DNA from: a virus
DNA: 20,941 nucleotides
Virus record (IMG/VR): IMGVR_UViG_3300037493_002695
Coordinates: 1 to 20,941 of that record
Strand: one strand, 5' to 3'
The number at the start of each line of letters is the position of its first letter. Position 1 is the first letter of the stretch. The position numbers and the translations under genes are program-made. The notes beneath the pieces were generated by a model. It did no database searches and was not told where the DNA came from. It saw only the letters and a list, made by a program, of their open reading frames with translations. Positions 1,961 through 9,098 of this stretch are shown here, one piece after another.

Positions 1961-1962
1961 AT

Positions 1963-2520
1963 TTATTCCTCAATTACTTTTTTACCAAGAATGGTTTTTA
2001 TTTTGTAATTTGGCTTTGGATTATCAGCCAGCCACATTGTGTATTCTCGATATTCAATGCTATCTGCAAATTGTTTTTTGCGATATGCATGAACTGAACA
2101 TGGTTGTTCTTCTGTGCAGTCTTCGCATCCTTCTCCAATTGAATCCATTTTTTCAATTAAATGCCCAAACAATTTTTGTTTGGTTTCATAATGAATATCG
2201 CATTCAGGATTGCTTGATTCTTGAATAAAATACTTCGTCAGCTCATCTGCGCTTCGCACTCGATAGGATGTTTGCATTCTACCGGATGCGGCTTCTTCGA
2301 TGTGTAGCACTTTCATTTCAACCAGCCGAGCGATTGACTTGATGACGCTTGCCTTTGAAAGTCCTACAGATTGGGCAAGTTCGCTGTAGCTGACTGAAAC
2401 CTTAGATGTCTTGTAGTTCGCTGAAGTGCTCAGGAACATGGCTAGACGGGCCTCAGAGCCGTTTAAATCACCATAGACAGCCAGCCATCTCATAAGCTCA
2501 GAAATTTCCTTGTAATCCAC
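1963..2520 (-). CDS. Winged-helix DNA-binding protein, candidate origin-binding initiator or regulator
   Basis: The N-terminal half of this 185-residue protein is a winged helix-turn-helix: helix 'SYSELAQSVGLSKASVIKSI' (about 44-63) as the recognition unit, followed by the wing 'VLHIEEAASGRMQTSYRV'. The C-terminal half has a Cys/His cluster CEDCTEEQPCSVHAY (about 132-146) that could bind a metal, then a helical tail. It starts with GTG, supported by AGGA seven bases upstream, right beside the repeat-rich 2521-2933 region. A winged-helix protein next to iterons is the arrangement of replication initiators, but it could instead repress the terminase operon. Its base composition is visibly richer in A+T than the terminase and primase genes, hinting at a separate origin. 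Confidence 0.75.
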   Translation of the reverse strand: MDYKEISELMRWLAVYGDLNGSEARLAMFLSTSANYKTSKVSVSYSELAQSVGLSKASVIKSIARLVEMKVLHIEEAASGRMQTSYRVRSADELTKYFIQESSNPECDIHYETKQKLFGHLIEKMDSIGEGCEDCTEEQPCSVHAYRKKQFADSIEYREYTMWLADNPKPNYKIKTILGKKVIEE

Positions 2521-2570
2521 GTTCTAGTCCTTTCGTGTTTTTGCGCGTTAGCGCTTAAGAGCGTAAACGA

Positions 2571-2594
2571 GTAGCGCCGCGAAGCGCGCGCTAC
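2571..2594. repeat. GC-rich hairpin with GCGAAGC mini-hairpin core
   Basis: GTAGCGC at 2571-2577 pairs with GCGCTAC at 2588-2594. Inside, CGC-GAA-GCG (2578-2586) continues the stem with one bulged base, giving ten pairs around a GAA loop. The core GCGAAGC (2579-2585) is the sequence known from biophysical work as an unusually stable single-stranded DNA mini-hairpin. Confidence 0.7.
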
Positions 2595-2635
2595 GAAGTA
2601 TTACGCTTCACTTTACGTTACGCTTATACTTCGTA
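2592..2635. repeat. 9-bp inverted repeat TACGAAGTA enclosing direct repeats
   Basis: TACGAAGTA at 2592-2600 is perfectly complementary to TACTTCGTA at 2627-2635. The 26-base interval holds two direct copies of TTACGCTT (2601-2608 and 2618-2625). The left arm shares three bases with the GC-rich hairpin, so the two structures would compete. Confidence 0.7.
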
Positions 2636-2642
2636 AGAGTAC

Positions 2643-2726
2643 CAAAAAAATATTACTCTACAGCGATTTTGTAGCACTCTACGCAAAAAGTCAAGCACTC
2701 TACGCACAATTAGTAGCACTCATGCG
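2643..2726 (+). repeat. Iteron array 1: four tiled 21-bp repeats
   Basis: Four units of exactly 21 bases adjoin one another: 2643-2663, 2664-2684, 2685-2705 and 2706-2726. Each has an A/T-rich first half followed by a conserved end with core starts at 2655, 2676, 2697 and 2718: ACTCTACAG, ACTCTACGC, ACTCTACGC and ACTCATGCG. Units 2-4 also share a preceding AGC. Twenty-one bases is two helical turns, so bound proteins would line up on one face. Confidence 0.85.
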
Positions 2727-2759
2727 ATATTTTTTTATAACGTGAGTGCTACTTTTTTT
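2712..2759 (+). repeat. Hairpin AGTAGCACTCA followed by T-tract
   Basis: AGTAGCACTCA (2712-2722, part of the fourth iteron) is perfectly complementary to TGAGTGCTACT (2743-2753), with a 20-base AT-rich loop and a run of seven T ending at 2759. It looks like a plus-strand terminator but no plus-strand gene is nearby; it also provides an inverted iteron copy. Confidence 0.65.
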
Positions 2760-2768
2760 GTCTCTTGT

Positions 2769-2800
2769 ACTACAGTTTTTGTGTTTTGTAGTCTTTTTTT
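2769..2800 (+). repeat. Second hairpin with T-tract in origin centre
   Basis: ACTACA (2769-2774) pairs with TGTAGT (2787-2792), followed by C and seven T (2794-2800). The stem is short. The phrase TTTTTTTATCACT (2794-2806) recurs at 2926-2938, across the primase stop codon. Confidence 0.45.
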
Positions 2801-2811
2801 ATCACTATCAT

Positions 2812-2825
2812 GGTCAAAATTGACC
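2812..2825. promoter_or_regulatory. 14-bp palindrome, operator-like
   Basis: GGTCAA and TTGACC are perfect inverted arms separated by AA. The palindrome lies in the middle of the gene-free region between the two iteron arrays, and is nested in a wider CATGG...CCATG pair (2809-2832). It could be a dimeric regulator site; no binding protein is known. Confidence 0.5.
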
Positions 2826-2859
2826 CCCCATGTTTTGCTGAAAAGCTCCTGTAGTGTGT

Positions 2860-2922
2860 AATTTTTGCACTACCCTACAGAGAATTAGCACTACTCTACA
2901 GACATTTAGTAGCACTCAAGCT
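2860..2922 (+). repeat. Iteron array 2: three tiled 21-bp repeats
   Basis: Units 2860-2880, 2881-2901 and 2902-2922 adjoin exactly. Cores start at 2872, 2893 and 2914: ACCCTACAG, ACTCTACAG and ACTCAAGCT. The first two are preceded by GCACT and the third by TAGTAGC, as in array 1. The last unit diverges in the same way as the last unit of array 1. The array ends 11 bases before the primase stop codon. Confidence 0.85.
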
Positions 2923-2933
2923 GTGTTTTTTTA

Positions 2934-4949
2934 TCACTCTGCTCCGCGCCTAACGATCATTGATCTAGCATGCGCAAGGTCACTTACCATCCATCCGTGA
3001 CGGTGTTCGGTGATGATGTGAGCATCAAGTAGAGACGCAATCATGCCTTCTGTTGCTCCTGGATTTGTAACTGCGTCTGCTTCTTTGAAGTTCGCGCATC
3101 TTCCTGATGATTGCAAAAATTCAACGAATGACGACCTTGATATGTAAGGCTTTCCGTCTGTAGTTTCTTCTGCACCTGTTGCATACCATCCTGCAATAAA
3201 GTGATGCATATTTGAATCAACATTATTTGTGCTTTTTGTTTTATTTTCTGCCTGCACAATAACCGCCGAAGTCACTGCTTGCCCGTCCTCGTCAAACCAG
3301 CCTGGAATCTCGACCTGTTCAAGCTGGACAAATACGGTTTGTGCCAGCTCCGCATCCTTGGACTTGCGCTGAACGATCTGCATCGGTGCGGATTCAGTGG
3401 CCGGCACAATGCTTATCTCAATGTCCAAAGCCCCGCGCCATGCACTGCTACCGCGTGCCCGGTGTTGCGCCTCGTCGCTGACGCCGGTGTGGTGAACTAG
3501 CACCACGCTGCACCCGAATTCGCTCATCAATCGGTTGCACGCATCAAGCATTGTCTTGGCATCCTGCGCGCTGTTTTCGTCGCCGTTTAGGAATCGGTGA
3601 AGGGTATCGACTACGATCACTTCGGGGCTGTATCCGAGCGCCCTAACCTGCTCAACGACCTTCAGATAGCCATCGGCGGTGTTGAGATCGCACCCGTCCC
3701 GTGAGAGCCACATCGAGAGACTGCCGGCCTGGTGTCGGTGTTTCCATGCTGCGATGCGCCCGCGCAGGCCGTGATGCCCTTCACCGGCCAGGTACACAAT
3801 CCGCCCAGGCTTGACCTTCTGCCCGCACCATTCGGCCATGCCGCTGGCCATGCGCAGGCACCAATCCAGAACGACGAAAGTCTTTCCGCCTCCGCTTGGG
3901 CCATGCACCATGATGAGCGCGTCTTTCTGAATCCAGTGCTTCACCAGCCACGAGATAGGCGCAGGCTGTGCTGAAAAGTCATCGGCTGGAATCAGCCAGC
4001 CATCCTCGCGCTGTGGAGTGAGAAGCGCGGCCAGATTGTGCCCGGCTTGCATATAATCGTTTGCATCCATGCCCTCTATTGGAGGGACAACCACGCGCGC
4101 GCCGTACTTCGCGCTGGCCTGATCGGCGTACTTCTGGCCCGTGTGGCTCGCATCATTGTCTGCAACGATCACAAGCGCCTGAGCCGCGCCGAACTGCTGT
4201 CGAAGCATGCCGCACACTGGCACAAGATTCGAGGCGCTGTATGCGATGAATACCGGCTGGCCGGTGGTCTGGTGAATCGTCGCGGCTGTGGCGAAGCCCT
4301 CCGCGATGTAAATCGTCTTTGCATCTTCGAGCGCACCGAGCCACCAATATGCGCCGCCAGTCTGCCCGCCTGGGTGGTATTTCTTTTCGCTGCTTGCGTC
4401 GATGTATTGCAGAGACACCAGCTCACCATCGGGGCTGTAAAGCGGCACGATCAAGCGACCGTCGCCGGTCACTCGTGCGCCGTGTGTGGCGATGCCCTTG
4501 CGCTGTAGGTACGGATGCTCCGGGCTTGCGGCCTGGGCTTCTGACCATATCCGCCCCACGACATCGGCGGCAGTCTCGCGCCGTCTGGCCAGCTCTGCCT
4601 CTCGCAGTGCTGCGGCTTCTGCCATGCGCCGGGTGTGGGCCATCTGCTCAACGTGCGAGATTTTGCGGCCAACATCTGCCCGCCAGGATTGCACCAGGCC
4701 TGATCGCCAGCATCCGAACTGCCCCGCCGGGATGCCATCAGCGAAGATGATGTACCAGCCGGAGTCTCCGCGCTTGCCGGATGTGCAGAATCGGTGCATC
4801 TTGCCGTCAATGTGAATCTGCTCCGGCGTGTGAGTGATGCCAGCCGAGCGCATGGCGTCTATGAGCTGTGATTCAGGAGGTGCGACTGGCCGCGCCGCGT
4901 CTAGTGTGGGGAGTGACGCGACATCAAAAACGCGCCCGAGCTTTGCCAT
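2934..4949 (-). CDS. Toprim primase fused to RecA-like (RepA/DnaB-type) helicase
   Basis: A 671-residue replication enzyme that should prime and unwind DNA at the fork. The N-terminal third holds a primase-type region with DGIPAGQFGCW (about 71-81). A Toprim domain follows, with the glutamate in YIAEGFATA (E217) and the metal-binding DND (264-266). A RecA-fold ATPase then starts with Walker A GPSGGGKT (350-357), Walker B VIVVDTL (444-450, D448) and the sensor-like VLVHHTG (about 483-489) typical of RepA-like hexameric helicases. The C-terminal 90 residues look like a small helical DNA-binding domain. No CHC2 zinc ribbon is obvious at the N-terminus. ATG 4949 has AAAGGAG nine bases upstream. 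The gene ends beside the iterons, and its last 300 bases are richer in A+T than the rest. Confidence 0.92.
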   Translation of the reverse strand: MAKLGRVFDVASLPTLDAARPVAPPESQLIDAMRSAGITHTPEQIHIDGKMHRFCTSGKRGDSGWYIIFADGIPAGQFGCWRSGLVQSWRADVGRKISHVEQMAHTRRMAEAAALREAELARRRETAADVVGRIWSEAQAASPEHPYLQRKGIATHGARVTGDGRLIVPLYSPDGELVSLQYIDASSEKKYHPGGQTGGAYWWLGALEDAKTIYIAEGFATAATIHQTTGQPVFIAYSASNLVPVCGMLRQQFGAAQALVIVADNDASHTGQKYADQASAKYGARVVVPPIEGMDANDYMQAGHNLAALLTPQREDGWLIPADDFSAQPAPISWLVKHWIQKDALIMVHGPSGGGKTFVVLDWCLRMASGMAEWCGQKVKPGRIVYLAGEGHHGLRGRIAAWKHRHQAGSLSMWLSRDGCDLNTADGYLKVVEQVRALGYSPEVIVVDTLHRFLNGDENSAQDAKTMLDACNRLMSEFGCSVVLVHHTGVSDEAQHRARGSSAWRGALDIEISIVPATESAPMQIVQRKSKDAELAQTVFVQLEQVEIPGWFDEDGQAVTSAVIVQAENKTKSTNNVDSNMHHFIAGWYATGAEETTDGKPYISRSSFVEFLQSSGRCANFKEADAVTNPGATEGMIASLLDAHIITEHRHGWMVSDLAHARSMIVRRGAE

Positions 4950-5967: not shown

Positions 5968-6387
5968 ATGCTTAAAACCTACACGATCAACAACGTCAAG
6001 ACAAATACCTACCTCGGCACGTTCGAGGCTAACAGTCAAAGTGGTGCACTGGACGAATTCGCAAAGACACATGGTTATGCCAACTATGAAGACTTTTGCG
6101 AAGTTGAAGACTTGCGCGAGCCGGTTGGAGAAGACGACATACAAGTCGATCTGCAATTGCGAGATCGAGATGGTAACTACCGGTTTGCCAAATCCTCTCT
6201 CATCGATTGGATGGGAATGATTCCATCACACATCTTGAGCGCAATCGCCACCGGGCAAGTCAATGCAAGGCTTGCGGCTGTAGATCTGCTGTCCATGCGT
6301 GGGCAATGTGTAGAAACGTTGACTTGGCTCAAGTTCAGCGAAGCTGAAGAAGTCGCCATTGAATGGCGCAAGAAAGTTACGGCATAA
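5968..6387 (+). CDS. Unknown 139-residue protein
   Basis: No family is recognised. The N-terminal part (MLKTYTINNVKTNTYLGTFE) looks like a short beta-rich module that leads into 'ALDEFAKTHGYANYEDFCEV', a pattern seen in small phage and plasmid proteins of unknown role. The C-terminal half is helical and ends with 'EEVAIEWRKKVTA'. There are no membrane segments and no clear catalytic motif. The start is set by the leader CAACCGGAGTAACCGAAATG (5951-5970), nearly identical to that of the gene at 5102. It is separated from the next gene by a GCAA-capped hairpin (6394-6407). Confidence 0.78.
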   Translation: MLKTYTINNVKTNTYLGTFEANSQSGALDEFAKTHGYANYEDFCEVEDLREPVGEDDIQVDLQLRDRDGNYRFAKSSLIDWMGMIPSHILSAIATGQVNARLAAVDLLSMRGQCVETLTWLKFSEAEEVAIEWRKKVTA

Positions 6388-6393
6388 TCACCC

Positions 6394-6407
6394 GCCCCGC
6401 AAGGGGC
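6394..6407 (+). terminator. Intergenic hairpin with GCAA tetraloop
   Basis: GCCCC (6394-6398) and GGGGC (6403-6407) close a GCAA loop, a GNRA-type tetraloop that is especially stable in RNA. It lies seven bases after the stop of the 5968 gene. There is no T-tract, so it probably shapes or protects mRNA rather than ending it. Confidence 0.5.
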
Positions 6408-6436
6408 ATCCATCAACGCCAAACCGGAGAACCGAC

Positions 6437-7108
6437 ATGGCAATCAATCTAAAGAGAAGCGGCACCCTGGCCGCGCATGGCGTCAAGCTGCTTGTTTACG
6501 GGCAAGCTGGCGCAGGTAAAACGTCGCTCATCCCAACCCTGCCAGCGCCCATTGTCCTGAGCGCTGAAGGCGGCTTGCTTTCAATCGCCGGTGCCGATGT
6601 GCCATACATCGAGATCAGCGACATGGCAACACTGCGTGAGGCTTGGAGCTGGCTCAGCGAGAGCGCCGAGGCAAAGGAGTTTCAATCGGTGGCGCTGGAC
6701 AGCATCAGCGAGATTGCCGAAGTCGTGCTAAACGCCGAGAAGAAGGCCACGAAAGACCCGCGCCAAGCTTACGGCGCGATGCAAGAACAGATGGCCGACA
6801 TCATCCGGGCCTTCCGCGACCTTCCTGGACGGCACGTTTACATGAGCGCCAAACTCGAAAAAACGCAGGACGAAATGGGCCGGGTGTTGTATGCGCCGAG
6901 CATGCCGGGCAATAAGACCGGCCAGCAACTGCCATACTTCTTCGACGAGGTGCTGGCCCTGCGCGTAGAGCGTGACGCAGAAGGCAACAGCCAGCGTGCG
7001 CTTATGTGTGATTCTGATGGCCTTTGGCTGGCCAAGGATCGCAGCGGCAAGCTTCAAGCGTGGGAAGCGCCTGACCTGGGCGCAATCATCAACAAGATCG
7101 GAGCATGA
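6437..7108 (+). CDS. Sak4-like RecA-fold ATPase (phage recombinase)
   Basis: A 223-residue AAA_24-type ATPase of the Sak4 group, phage relatives of the RecA core that support single-strand annealing or strand exchange together with an SSB. Walker A GQAGAGKT spans 22-29, preceded by a strand 'VKLLVYG'; Walker B is FQSVALDS (D88). The conserved 'YGAMQEQMADIIRAFRDLPG' helix and the later 'MPGNKTGQQLPYFFDEVLAL' segment are typical of this family. The ATG at 6437 has the leader CCGGAGAACCGAC; the open frame extends upstream to 6359 only across the previous gene's end. The genes downstream encode a helper, an ssDNA-binding protein and an exonuclease, so this is the head of a recombination cassette. 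The stop overlaps a possible ATG at 7105. Confidence 0.9.
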   Translation: MAINLKRSGTLAAHGVKLLVYGQAGAGKTSLIPTLPAPIVLSAEGGLLSIAGADVPYIEISDMATLREAWSWLSESAEAKEFQSVALDSISEIAEVVLNAEKKATKDPRQAYGAMQEQMADIIRAFRDLPGRHVYMSAKLEKTQDEMGRVLYAPSMPGNKTGQQLPYFFDEVLALRVERDAEGNSQRALMCDSDGLWLAKDRSGKLQAWEAPDLGAIINKIGA

Positions 7109-7110
7109 GC

Positions 7111-7509
7111 ATGGATTACATTGACTTGGAACTGTTGGCCCGTCAGTGGCAAGAAGCAAAAGAAGCTGAGCGCGTAGCCGTGGCAAAGCGCCGTGAGCTT
7201 GAAGATCAAATGAGCAACGCGCTTGGCGTGGACGCAGCAAAAGAAGGTACAGAAACGCATCTTCTGCCAGAAGGCTTGATGATCAAGATCATCAGCCGCC
7301 TCGACCGCAAGGTTGACGCCGATAAGGCGCAGGAGCTGGCCGCAGAGCATGATCTACAGAATGCGCTCGGTGCGCTTTTCAGGTGGAAGCCTGAGATTGA
7401 TATGGCCGCATGGCGCAAAGCGCCCGCAGATGTGACCGCTATTTTCGCTGGGGCCGTTACCGTCAAGCCCGGACGCCCTTCTTTCACTATTGCAACCAAG
7501 GAGCAATAA
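7111..7509 (+). CDS. Unknown 132-residue recombination-cassette helper
   Basis: The protein begins MDYIDLELLARQWQEAKEAE and has a long N-terminal amphipathic helix, then a small beta region ('GLMIKIISRLDRKVDADKA') and a tail with 'FRWKPEIDMAAW' and 'KPGRPSFTIATK'. Proteins of this pattern are common between phage recombinase and SSB/exonuclease genes; their role is unknown, and I infer only association with recombination from position. Two ATG codons compete. The one at 7105 overlaps the previous stop (ATGA) but lies one base after GGAG, too close. The one at 7111 is seven bases from GGAG, so I prefer it. Confidence 0.8.
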   Translation: MDYIDLELLARQWQEAKEAERVAVAKRRELEDQMSNALGVDAAKEGTETHLLPEGLMIKIISRLDRKVDADKAQELAAEHDLQNALGALFRWKPEIDMAAWRKAPADVTAIFAGAVTVKPGRPSFTIATKEQ

Positions 7510-7511
7510 AA

Positions 7512-8027
7512 ATGGCTTTCCTTTCACAATCTTTCGCGGTTGACGAGTTGCCGCAAGGCTCTGGCGGTAACTTCGAGCCGCTGCCGGCTGGGTGGTATCA
7601 GGCCACGATCACATCGGCTGAACTGAAAAAGACCAAGGCCGGAACCGGAGAATACATCGCAATTCGCTACGACATCCTGGGGCCGACGCATCAAGGCCGG
7701 GTTGTTTTTGGCAACCTGAACATCGCCAATCCGAACCAAAAAGCCGAGGAAATCGGACGCCAGCAACTGCGCGAGCTGATGGTGTCAATCGGCCTCAACA
7801 GCGTGTCTGACACCGATCAACTCATTGGCGGTAGCCTTAGCATCAAGCTTGACGTAAAGAGTGACGAGCAATACGGCGACAAGAACGAAGTTCGCGGATT
7901 CAAGTCTGCCGGTGGTGGTTCTGCCGCGCCGAAGGCTGCTGCTTCTGTGCCCTCGTTCGCCGCGCATGCTGCTGCACCGGCTGCACCTGCAACTGCCAAG
8001 GCCGCGCCGCCCTGGTTGAAGAAGTAA
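7512..8027 (+). CDS. DUF669 protein, phage ssDNA-binding protein
   Basis: The 171-residue product has the DUF669 pattern: 'GGNFEPLPAGWYQATITSAE', then 'GTGEYIAIRYDILGPTHQGR', then 'NLNIANPNQKAEEIGRQQL' and 'IGGSLSIKLDVKSDEQYGDK'. This describes an OB-like beta fold that coats single-stranded DNA and partners phage recombinases. Residues from about 130 onward form a flexible Ala/Pro-rich linker that ends in a short conserved-looking tip, PPWLKK. The tip could recruit partners as the C-terminal tips of SSB proteins do, though it is basic, not acidic. AAGGAG nine bases upstream fixes ATG 7512. The gene follows the helper by two bases and is closed by a hairpin. Confidence 0.88.
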   Translation: MAFLSQSFAVDELPQGSGGNFEPLPAGWYQATITSAELKKTKAGTGEYIAIRYDILGPTHQGRVVFGNLNIANPNQKAEEIGRQQLRELMVSIGLNSVSDTDQLIGGSLSIKLDVKSDEQYGDKNEVRGFKSAGGGSAAPKAAASVPSFAAHAAAPAAPATAKAAPPWLKK

Positions 8028-8032
8028 ACCAA

Positions 8033-8053
8033 AGCCCGGACAGGTTCCGGGCT
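8033..8053 (+). terminator. Hairpin after SSB gene, weak terminator
   Basis: AGCCCGGA (8033-8040) and TCCGGGCT (8046-8053) form a perfect 8-bp stem with a five-base loop, followed by the modestly T-rich ATCTATTT. Partial termination here would leave the SSB more abundant than the downstream nuclease. Confidence 0.6.
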
Positions 8054-8072
8054 ATCTATTTGAGGTGAGCAA

Positions 8073-9098
8073 TTGAGCACACTCCCCGACCCTCAGCATT
8101 CAATCACCGCCCTGATTGATGCTGCACACGAAGCGAAAGCGGAGGCCCCTCGGGGCCATTTGGGGGCTTCTCTGCTTGGCCACCACTGCGACCGCTGGCT
8201 ATGGCTCAACTTCAGATGGGCCGTGATTGAGAAGTTTCCGGGCCGCATCCTGCGCGTGTTTAGGCGTGGCCACAATGAAGAAGCGCAGATTGTGAGCGAC
8301 CTTCGAGCCATTGGCATCGACATCAGAGACACGCAAGGCGCACAGAGCCGGGTTGACTTTGGCTCGCATGTGTCCGGCTCGATGGATGGCATCATTCATT
8401 CCGGCGTGCCTGAAGCGCCGAAAAAGCGCCACATTGCAGAGTTCAAAACGCACAGCAAAAAGAGCTTCGACGAGGTTTCACGCGATGGCGTGGAGAAAGC
8501 CAAGCCGATGCACTGGGCACAGATGCAAGCCTATATGCTCGGCGCTGGCATTGACCGTGCGCTTTACGTGGCAGTCTGCAAAGATGACGACAGGCTCTAT
8601 ACCGAGCGCGTGCGGCTGGATGTGGATGCAGCGCAGCAGATTGTGGCGCGTGGCCAGCGCATCGCACTATCTGATCGCATGCCAGAACCGGTGAGCGCAG
8701 ATCCGAGCTGGTATCAATGCAAGTTCTGCCCGGCGCATTCTTTCTGCCACCAGACCAAGCTGACAAAAGAGGTCAATTGCCGAACCTGCGCCCACTCTAC
8801 GCCGCTCAGTGATAGCACATGGCATTGCATACGCTGGGATGATGTGATTCCAGTTGAAGCGCAGCGCGAAGGCTGCACCGGGCATGTGTTGCATCCTGAC
8901 CTTGTGCCCTGGCATCGCAAAGAAGGGCCGGATGAATTCACGGCGGTTTATGTAGTGGATGGTGCCGAGGTGGCAAATGGCGAGCCGGATGCAAACATCT
9001 ACTCAAGCCGTGAGCTGATCGCAAACGCGCCGGCCTGCACTTGGCAAGAGGTGAAAGACTTGCGCGGGCAGTTCCCCGGCTCAAAGATCACAGCATGA
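8073..9098 (+). CDS. Cas4/RecB-like PD-(D/E)XK exonuclease with Fe-S cysteines
   Basis: A 341-residue nuclease likely to resect DNA ends for the phage recombinase. Active-site elements appear in order: H67 in RRGHNEE, D105 in SGSMDGI, the E-x-K of AEFKT (E123, K125) and the glutamine motif around HWAQMQAY (150-152). Four cysteines placed as in Cas4 and AddB-type nucleases (C39 in HHCDRW, then C216, C219 and C225 in CKFCPAHSFC) should bind a 4Fe-4S cluster. A second Cys set follows (CRTCAHS, HCIRW, GCTGH) and may hold a zinc. The start is TTG at 8073 with GAGGTGA five bases upstream; no ATG fits. It overlaps the next gene by four bases (ATGA). Confidence 0.9.
   Translation: MSTLPDPQHSITALIDAAHEAKAEAPRGHLGASLLGHHCDRWLWLNFRWAVIEKFPGRILRVFRRGHNEEAQIVSDLRAIGIDIRDTQGAQSRVDFGSHVSGSMDGIIHSGVPEAPKKRHIAEFKTHSKKSFDEVSRDGVEKAKPMHWAQMQAYMLGAGIDRALYVAVCKDDDRLYTERVRLDVDAAQQIVARGQRIALSDRMPEPVSADPSWYQCKFCPAHSFCHQTKLTKEVNCRTCAHSTPLSDSTWHCIRWDDVIPVEAQREGCTGHVLHPDLVPWHRKEGPDEFTAVYVVDGAEVANGEPDANIYSSRELIANAPACTWQEVKDLRGQFPGSKITA

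Follow-up and report, generated by a model that had tools for sequence, protein, structure and literature searches.

Repeat arrays beside a phage primase-helicase gene as a candidate, exchangeable replication origin

Described initiators and the locus in this phage

The Rep helicases of Staphylococcus aureus pathogenicity islands (SaPI) carry a C-terminal domain that reads iterons immediately downstream of their own gene (PMC7581432), and in the alpha protein of satellite phage P4 a primase and a helicase share one chain with a C-terminal winged helix that binds the origin (PMC4234260). Here we analysed a 20,941-nt fragment of a viral contig (IMG/VR record IMGVR_UViG_3300037493_002695, positions 1 to 20,941), the whole of which is referred to as the window, and in it the short tandem repeats at 2640-2940 that lie next to a gene for a primase-helicase. 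Judged from sequence, this array is probably the replication origin of the phage. Its reader is probably the C-terminal domain of the primase-helicase, which would work in the manner of SaPI Rep or P4 alpha. We favour, with rather more confidence than doubt, a reading in which this C-terminal winged helix recognizes the origin and the two are exchanged as one specificity cassette.

The SaPI Rep-type layout, with the array directly 3' of the initiator gene, is present in the window and in 102 of 108 related loci, and the repeats face in opposite directions as they do in the origins of SaPI Rep helicases and of the SCCmec helicase Cch2. The proteins differ: SaPI Rep and Cch2 have a DUF927 or Primase_Cterm/D5-type helicase, whereas the window protein has Toprim_3 and AAA_25 (Pfam). 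Also unlike those systems, the present one has many repeat words, covariation of residue and word across a phage family, and cassette exchange. P4 ori1 and crr resemble the arrays in having short repeats, but the P4 alpha helicase belongs to superfamily 3 and the window helicase is of the AAA_25/RSF1010 RepA type. The likeness to RSF1010 (IncQ) lies in this RepA-type hexameric helicase and in tandem iterons about two helical turns long, which in RSF1010 measure 20 bp. RSF1010 RepA, RepB' and RepC are, however, three polypeptides, whereas here primase and helicase, and probably also the binder, form one chain. A separate initiator-like winged-helix gene, a possible counterpart to the iteron binder RepC, occurs in the window only. 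In geminiviruses, closely related members have different short iterons, which follow the Rep domain by which they are read (PMC12548392), although that Rep is an unrelated rolling-circle initiator from another virus group and the present phages have double-stranded DNA. PLE RepA modules and ICP1 Odn offer a case in which initiator and origin are exchanged as a module with matched specificity (PMC8263062). The PLE initiator is of the RepA_N type without primase or helicase, its iterons are longer and semi-palindromic, and a nuclease is involved there. We found no paper on the origins of this primase-helicase family in the open-access literature, though one may still exist.

Repeat arrays in the window and in related phages

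The first-pass annotation, made from the letters alone, had described seven 21-bp units on the + strand, and the core starts that it gave proved exact (Table 1). In both + strand arrays the best self-match has a period of 21, and Tandem Repeats Finder (TRF) placed period-21 arrays at 2671-2721, 2749-2800 and 2867-2917. An additional, inverted array on the - strand had been missed. When any period from 10 to 40 was allowed, the best 55-nt stretch was equalled in 1 of 1000 dinucleotide shuffles. Nested in the 21-mers is a shorter word, GTAG/CTAC, which occurs 14 times in 2640-2945 (306 nt) against a shuffle mean of 3.1; this count was matched in 0 of 2000 shuffles, and in 3 of 2000 when any 4-mer counts. 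Perfect 10-bp arms, GTAGCACTCA at 2713-2722 and TGAGTGCTAC at 2743-2752, enclose an AT-rich stretch, and the 6-bp inverted repeat between the arrays gives a weak hairpin. No known RNA family matched. AGCGTAA words at 2521-2645, considered as a leftover array of the type found in relatives, are at chance level (365 of 1000 shuffles scored as high).

Primase searches yielded well over 100 related loci, 108 of them usable for the array survey; named relatives are Idiomarinaceae phage 1N2-2, Salicola phage CGphi29 and Alteromonas phages PB15 and XX1924. In the 102 loci with an array, a short word is repeated at least three times 3' of the primase stop. The word varies by phage, with about a dozen versions (GGTAAC, GGAAC, CGTAAC, CCCCCT, TGACCC, CGTACC, CGGACC, GGTACA, GGTTCA, GGGACA, CGCCCTA and GGTATA), and its mean density is 8.5 per 300 nt 3' of the primase versus 0.54 per kb elsewhere. 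Both orientations are present in all 98 loci with enough sequence; in 76 of these a palindrome separates the forward words from the reversed ones, and 61 have a DnaA box, always 3' of the primase. The common layout comprises words in forward and in reversed orientation, DnaA boxes and, in many cases, a hairpin that lies between facing words and has a centre of the CTTTAG type. Its cluster I, two to six forward words and then a reversed one, was seen in 82 of 97 relatives. The window agrees: read in gene orientation, array W has four forward GTAG words (at 35, 40, 56 and 61, nearest the primase stop) followed by one reversed word (at 80). This cluster I-like layout favours the primase-helicase as reader.

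The first-pass annotation had proposed to search relatives for a conserved 21-bp spacing and had listed its loss in close relatives among the refuting outcomes. Taken literally, this loss is what the relatives show: array and position are kept, with other, shorter words at other spacings. Since the period is lost while array and place remain, the origin is not refuted and the reading becomes one of an exchanged specificity cassette. Six loci lack a listed word. Four of these, L035-L038, are one primase lineage without a repeat word 3' of the gene, whose origin may be elsewhere; the others are L091 and L135, the latter with TGTCCT instead. In L117 a small open reading frame within positions 1-520 after the primase stop precedes the GGTAAC array and shifts it by ~300 nt. 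In L029 and L125 the primase frame breaks off ahead of the C-terminal winged helix. The latter resumes in another frame, and an insertion with CTACCC-type repeats lies at the break; this is either a contig error or a real rearrangement. L012 and L047, the closest relatives by primase core, end inside the primase gene, and their arrays are not visible.

The boundaries of the exchanged segment are sharp. In blastn comparisons of the window with L002, L004-L006, L008 and L009, homology stops exactly at 1960 and restarts at 3247 (3271 for L007). The DUF3310 gene has position 1960 as its first base; its product, encoded past this breakpoint, is 93-100% identical in relatives. As DNA, the segment between the breakpoints is found in none of the close relatives, and its G+C is 0.38-0.45 across most of its length, versus 0.50-0.64 across most of the remaining window. 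Up to residue 520 the blocks of the window primase core match those of L002-L006 at 90-100% identity, which falls to 30-45% over residues 560-640. Despite the near-identical core, the last ~105 residues are about 30-60% identical to those of L002-L007, which among them carry three words. These breakpoints indicate that the extra gene downstream arrived together with winged helix and array in one 1286-bp cassette. As a possible instance of the same iteron in relatives we considered GTAGAGTGCT-N11-GTAGAGTG, and rejected it: all four matches were coding coincidences in phage structural genes, among them a stretch in L213, L214 and L216 that copies the window iteron pair exactly.

Covariation of word and winged helix, and rival explanations

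Across the related loci, the identity of one primase residue follows the repeat word. Loci with GTAAC-type words have Q, L or M at residue 626 and those with GGAAC have V, K or T, in 52 of 52 loci, and the information of this residue on the distinction is 0.999 of 0.999 bits. The C-terminal domains of L013 (GGTAAC, with Q) and L015 (GGAAC, with V) are almost the same apart from this. When all words were considered, the most informative columns were residues 609-642, with 619, 620 and 625-629 at the top, in or beside predicted helix 3 of the C-terminal winged helix. In the AlphaFold2 (AF2) model of this domain of the window protein (mean pLDDT, the predicted local distance difference test score, 84), helix 3 comprises residues 621-627, encoded at 3069-3089. 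A fold search with the model returned general winged-helix matches (Z about 7); the origin-binding domain of P4 alpha was not among them, which excludes nothing. On a core tree built on residues 25-556, a span without the word-informative columns, there are 13 changes between the GTAAC-type and GGAAC classes and at least 36 changes when all words are counted. In eight supported independent pairs the residue agrees with the word in 6.6 and opposes it in 0 (p 0.016), a statistic that serves as a guide because the tree was quick and has many weakly supported forks and because the words were picked by inspection; the strict 52/52 match is the stronger fact. We infer that predicted helix 3 reads the repeat word.

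A mechanism consistent with these findings can be sketched. GTAG-type words in both orientations would be bound by the C-terminal winged helix of the primase-helicase, whose gene lies immediately upstream, and assembly on oppositely facing words would melt the AT-rich stretches. The RepA-type helicase, with its fused primase, would then be loaded at the melted array. Host DnaA may assist in those relatives that have DnaA boxes. Array and winged helix would be swapped as a unit among phages with near-identical primase-helicase cores. More tentatively, as something we consider possible rather than probable, the phage family may own an origin-specificity cassette in which the C-terminal ~105 residues of a Toprim/RepA-type primase-helicase are combined with the array. 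It would be exchanged between near-identical replication proteins and carry an amino-acid-to-word code in one helix, with selected turnover of the word, perhaps driven by origin-directed attack or by competition between co-infecting phages. If true, these phages supply a dozen naturally matched pairs of DNA word and winged-helix reader, set in near-constant protein backgrounds, in which origin recognition and its evolution could be tested directly, for example by single-residue swaps of Q and V at 626 for GGTAAC and GGAAC. A probable origin would have been named for a group of phages that is abundant in the environment. Phages would also be seen to exchange the specificity of their replication in one small module, with a bearing on how co-infecting phages exclude each other through incompatibility and on defences that target origins.

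Several findings weigh against recognition of the window array by the primase-helicase within such a cassette. The regular unit of the array is longer than in any relative, the fold test gave no strong hairpin, and no DnaA box lies near it. The first-pass annotation had suggested looking for a cumulative GC-skew minimum at the arrays; the minimum is instead found at about 4.5-4.75 kb, at the switch in gene direction, and lends no support. In the window only, an extra initiator-like gene sits inside the cassette. Peptide and degenerate-DNA searches found no second example of the window winged helix, nor was one found of its array, which makes this pair of word and reader unique. The word vocabulary was picked by inspection of the same loci in which it was then evaluated, and the class call of one of them, L139, looks wrong.

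The extra gene, 1963-2520, raises the question of who reads the array. The first-pass annotation had seen a candidate phage origin here with this winged-helix protein as initiator. The origin gains from a position and layout common to about 100 related loci, while the choice of initiator became doubtful. On this alternative, which we regard as less likely but as a serious rival, protein 1963-2520 would be a lambda-O/RepC-like initiator that arrived with the array and recruits the primase-helicase as RSF1010 RepC recruits RepA. The 21-bp regularity and the gene coincide at the window locus only, and being unique to it, they favour this reader. The tiling and the near-palindromic core (GTAG-4-CTAC) would suit a dimeric initiator, and the helicase part is RSF1010 RepA-like. 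The protein matches Rep-O-like profiles (PHROG 8102, E 1.6e-6; PHROG 391, E 3e-5; suggestively O-like), with HTH_36 barely above cut-off, but falls below the Phage_rep_O N-terminal cut-offs (Pfam 16.2 versus 28.7 bits; NCBIfam 15.3 versus 45.5). A promoter-like site at 2694-2666 on the - strand overlaps the array and is directed toward the gene, though such sites occur at chance frequency. Against this reader, about 100 relatives have arrays at the same spot without such a gene; it was absent downstream of related primases (44 loci first tested; a later search of all loci gave no further match). No relatives of the protein were found in viral contigs, phage records or plasmid records, and its single-sequence model is unusable (pLDDT 46). 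In the relatives the word tracks the primase winged helix, and in the window this winged helix has also been replaced with its fold kept, which one would not expect of a domain that had ceased to read DNA. For the window itself, we infer the primase-helicase as reader.

An improbable alternative is that the array is an operator without any role as an origin, through which protein 1963-2520 or another regulator controls transcription of the winged-helix gene or of the terminase genes. The array is directly upstream of 1963-2520 and overlaps the promoter-like site, but the count of such sites is at chance level, and relatives without that gene keep arrays, DnaA boxes and hairpins ahead of many different genes. 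Direct repeats occur in some pac/cos sites, and the terminase small subunit gene (terS) lies ~0.9 kb from the array. A packaging site read by this subunit is nevertheless very improbable and largely refuted, and we rejected it because array and terS vary independently: the window terS is 97% identical to that of L008, whose array differs, and L002 and L005 share a GGTAAC array with terS products 94% and 45% identical to that of the window.

Features and neighbouring genes

Gene order on the - strand is primase-helicase (2934-4949), array, winged-helix protein (1963-2520), DUF3310 protein and two terminase subunits. The labels that the first-pass annotation had given the two flanking genes, winged helix and primase-helicase, hold in Pfam and PHROGs. 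Residues 323-492 of the primase-helicase match PDB 1g8y (RSF1010 RepA) with E 1.3e-5.

Table 1. Coordinates of arrays, inverted repeats, genes and exchanged segment in the window.
Feature	Coordinates	Strand	Basis
Array F, four tiled 21-bp units, cores 2655, 2676, 2697, 2718	2647..2730	+	sequence, TRF
Array R, inverted 21-bp units, two clear and a third weak	2735..2797	-	sequence, TRF
Array W, three tiled 21-bp units, cores 2872, 2893, 2914	2864..2926	+	sequence, TRF
Perfect 10-bp inverted repeat around AT-rich stretch (TGCGATATTTTTTTATAACG)	2713..2752	.	sequence
Inverted repeat, 6-bp arms GGTCAA-AA-TTGACC	2812..2825	.	sequence; fold z -0.8
Primase-helicase, Toprim_3 primase and AAA_25 helicase, RSF1010 RepA type	2934..4949	-	Pfam, PHROGs, PDB 1g8y
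C-terminal winged-helix domain of primase-helicase, probable array reader	2937..3248	-	AF2 model, fold matches, covariation in relatives
Winged-helix, replication-initiator-like (Rep-O/DnaD-like) protein, GTG start, alternative reader	1963..2520	-	PHROGs, HTH_36
Exchanged cassette: primase winged-helix codons (about residues 568-671), array, winged-helix gene	1961..3246	-	blastn, G+C

Elsewhere in the window, comparison of 125-1761 with L002, L005, L008 and L009 indicated that the terminase small subunit has also been exchanged among close relatives (42-97% identity to that of the window), independently of the array. A Sak4-like annealing protein and a Cas4-domain exonuclease are encoded at 6359-9098 on the strand opposite to the primase, as they are in relatives.
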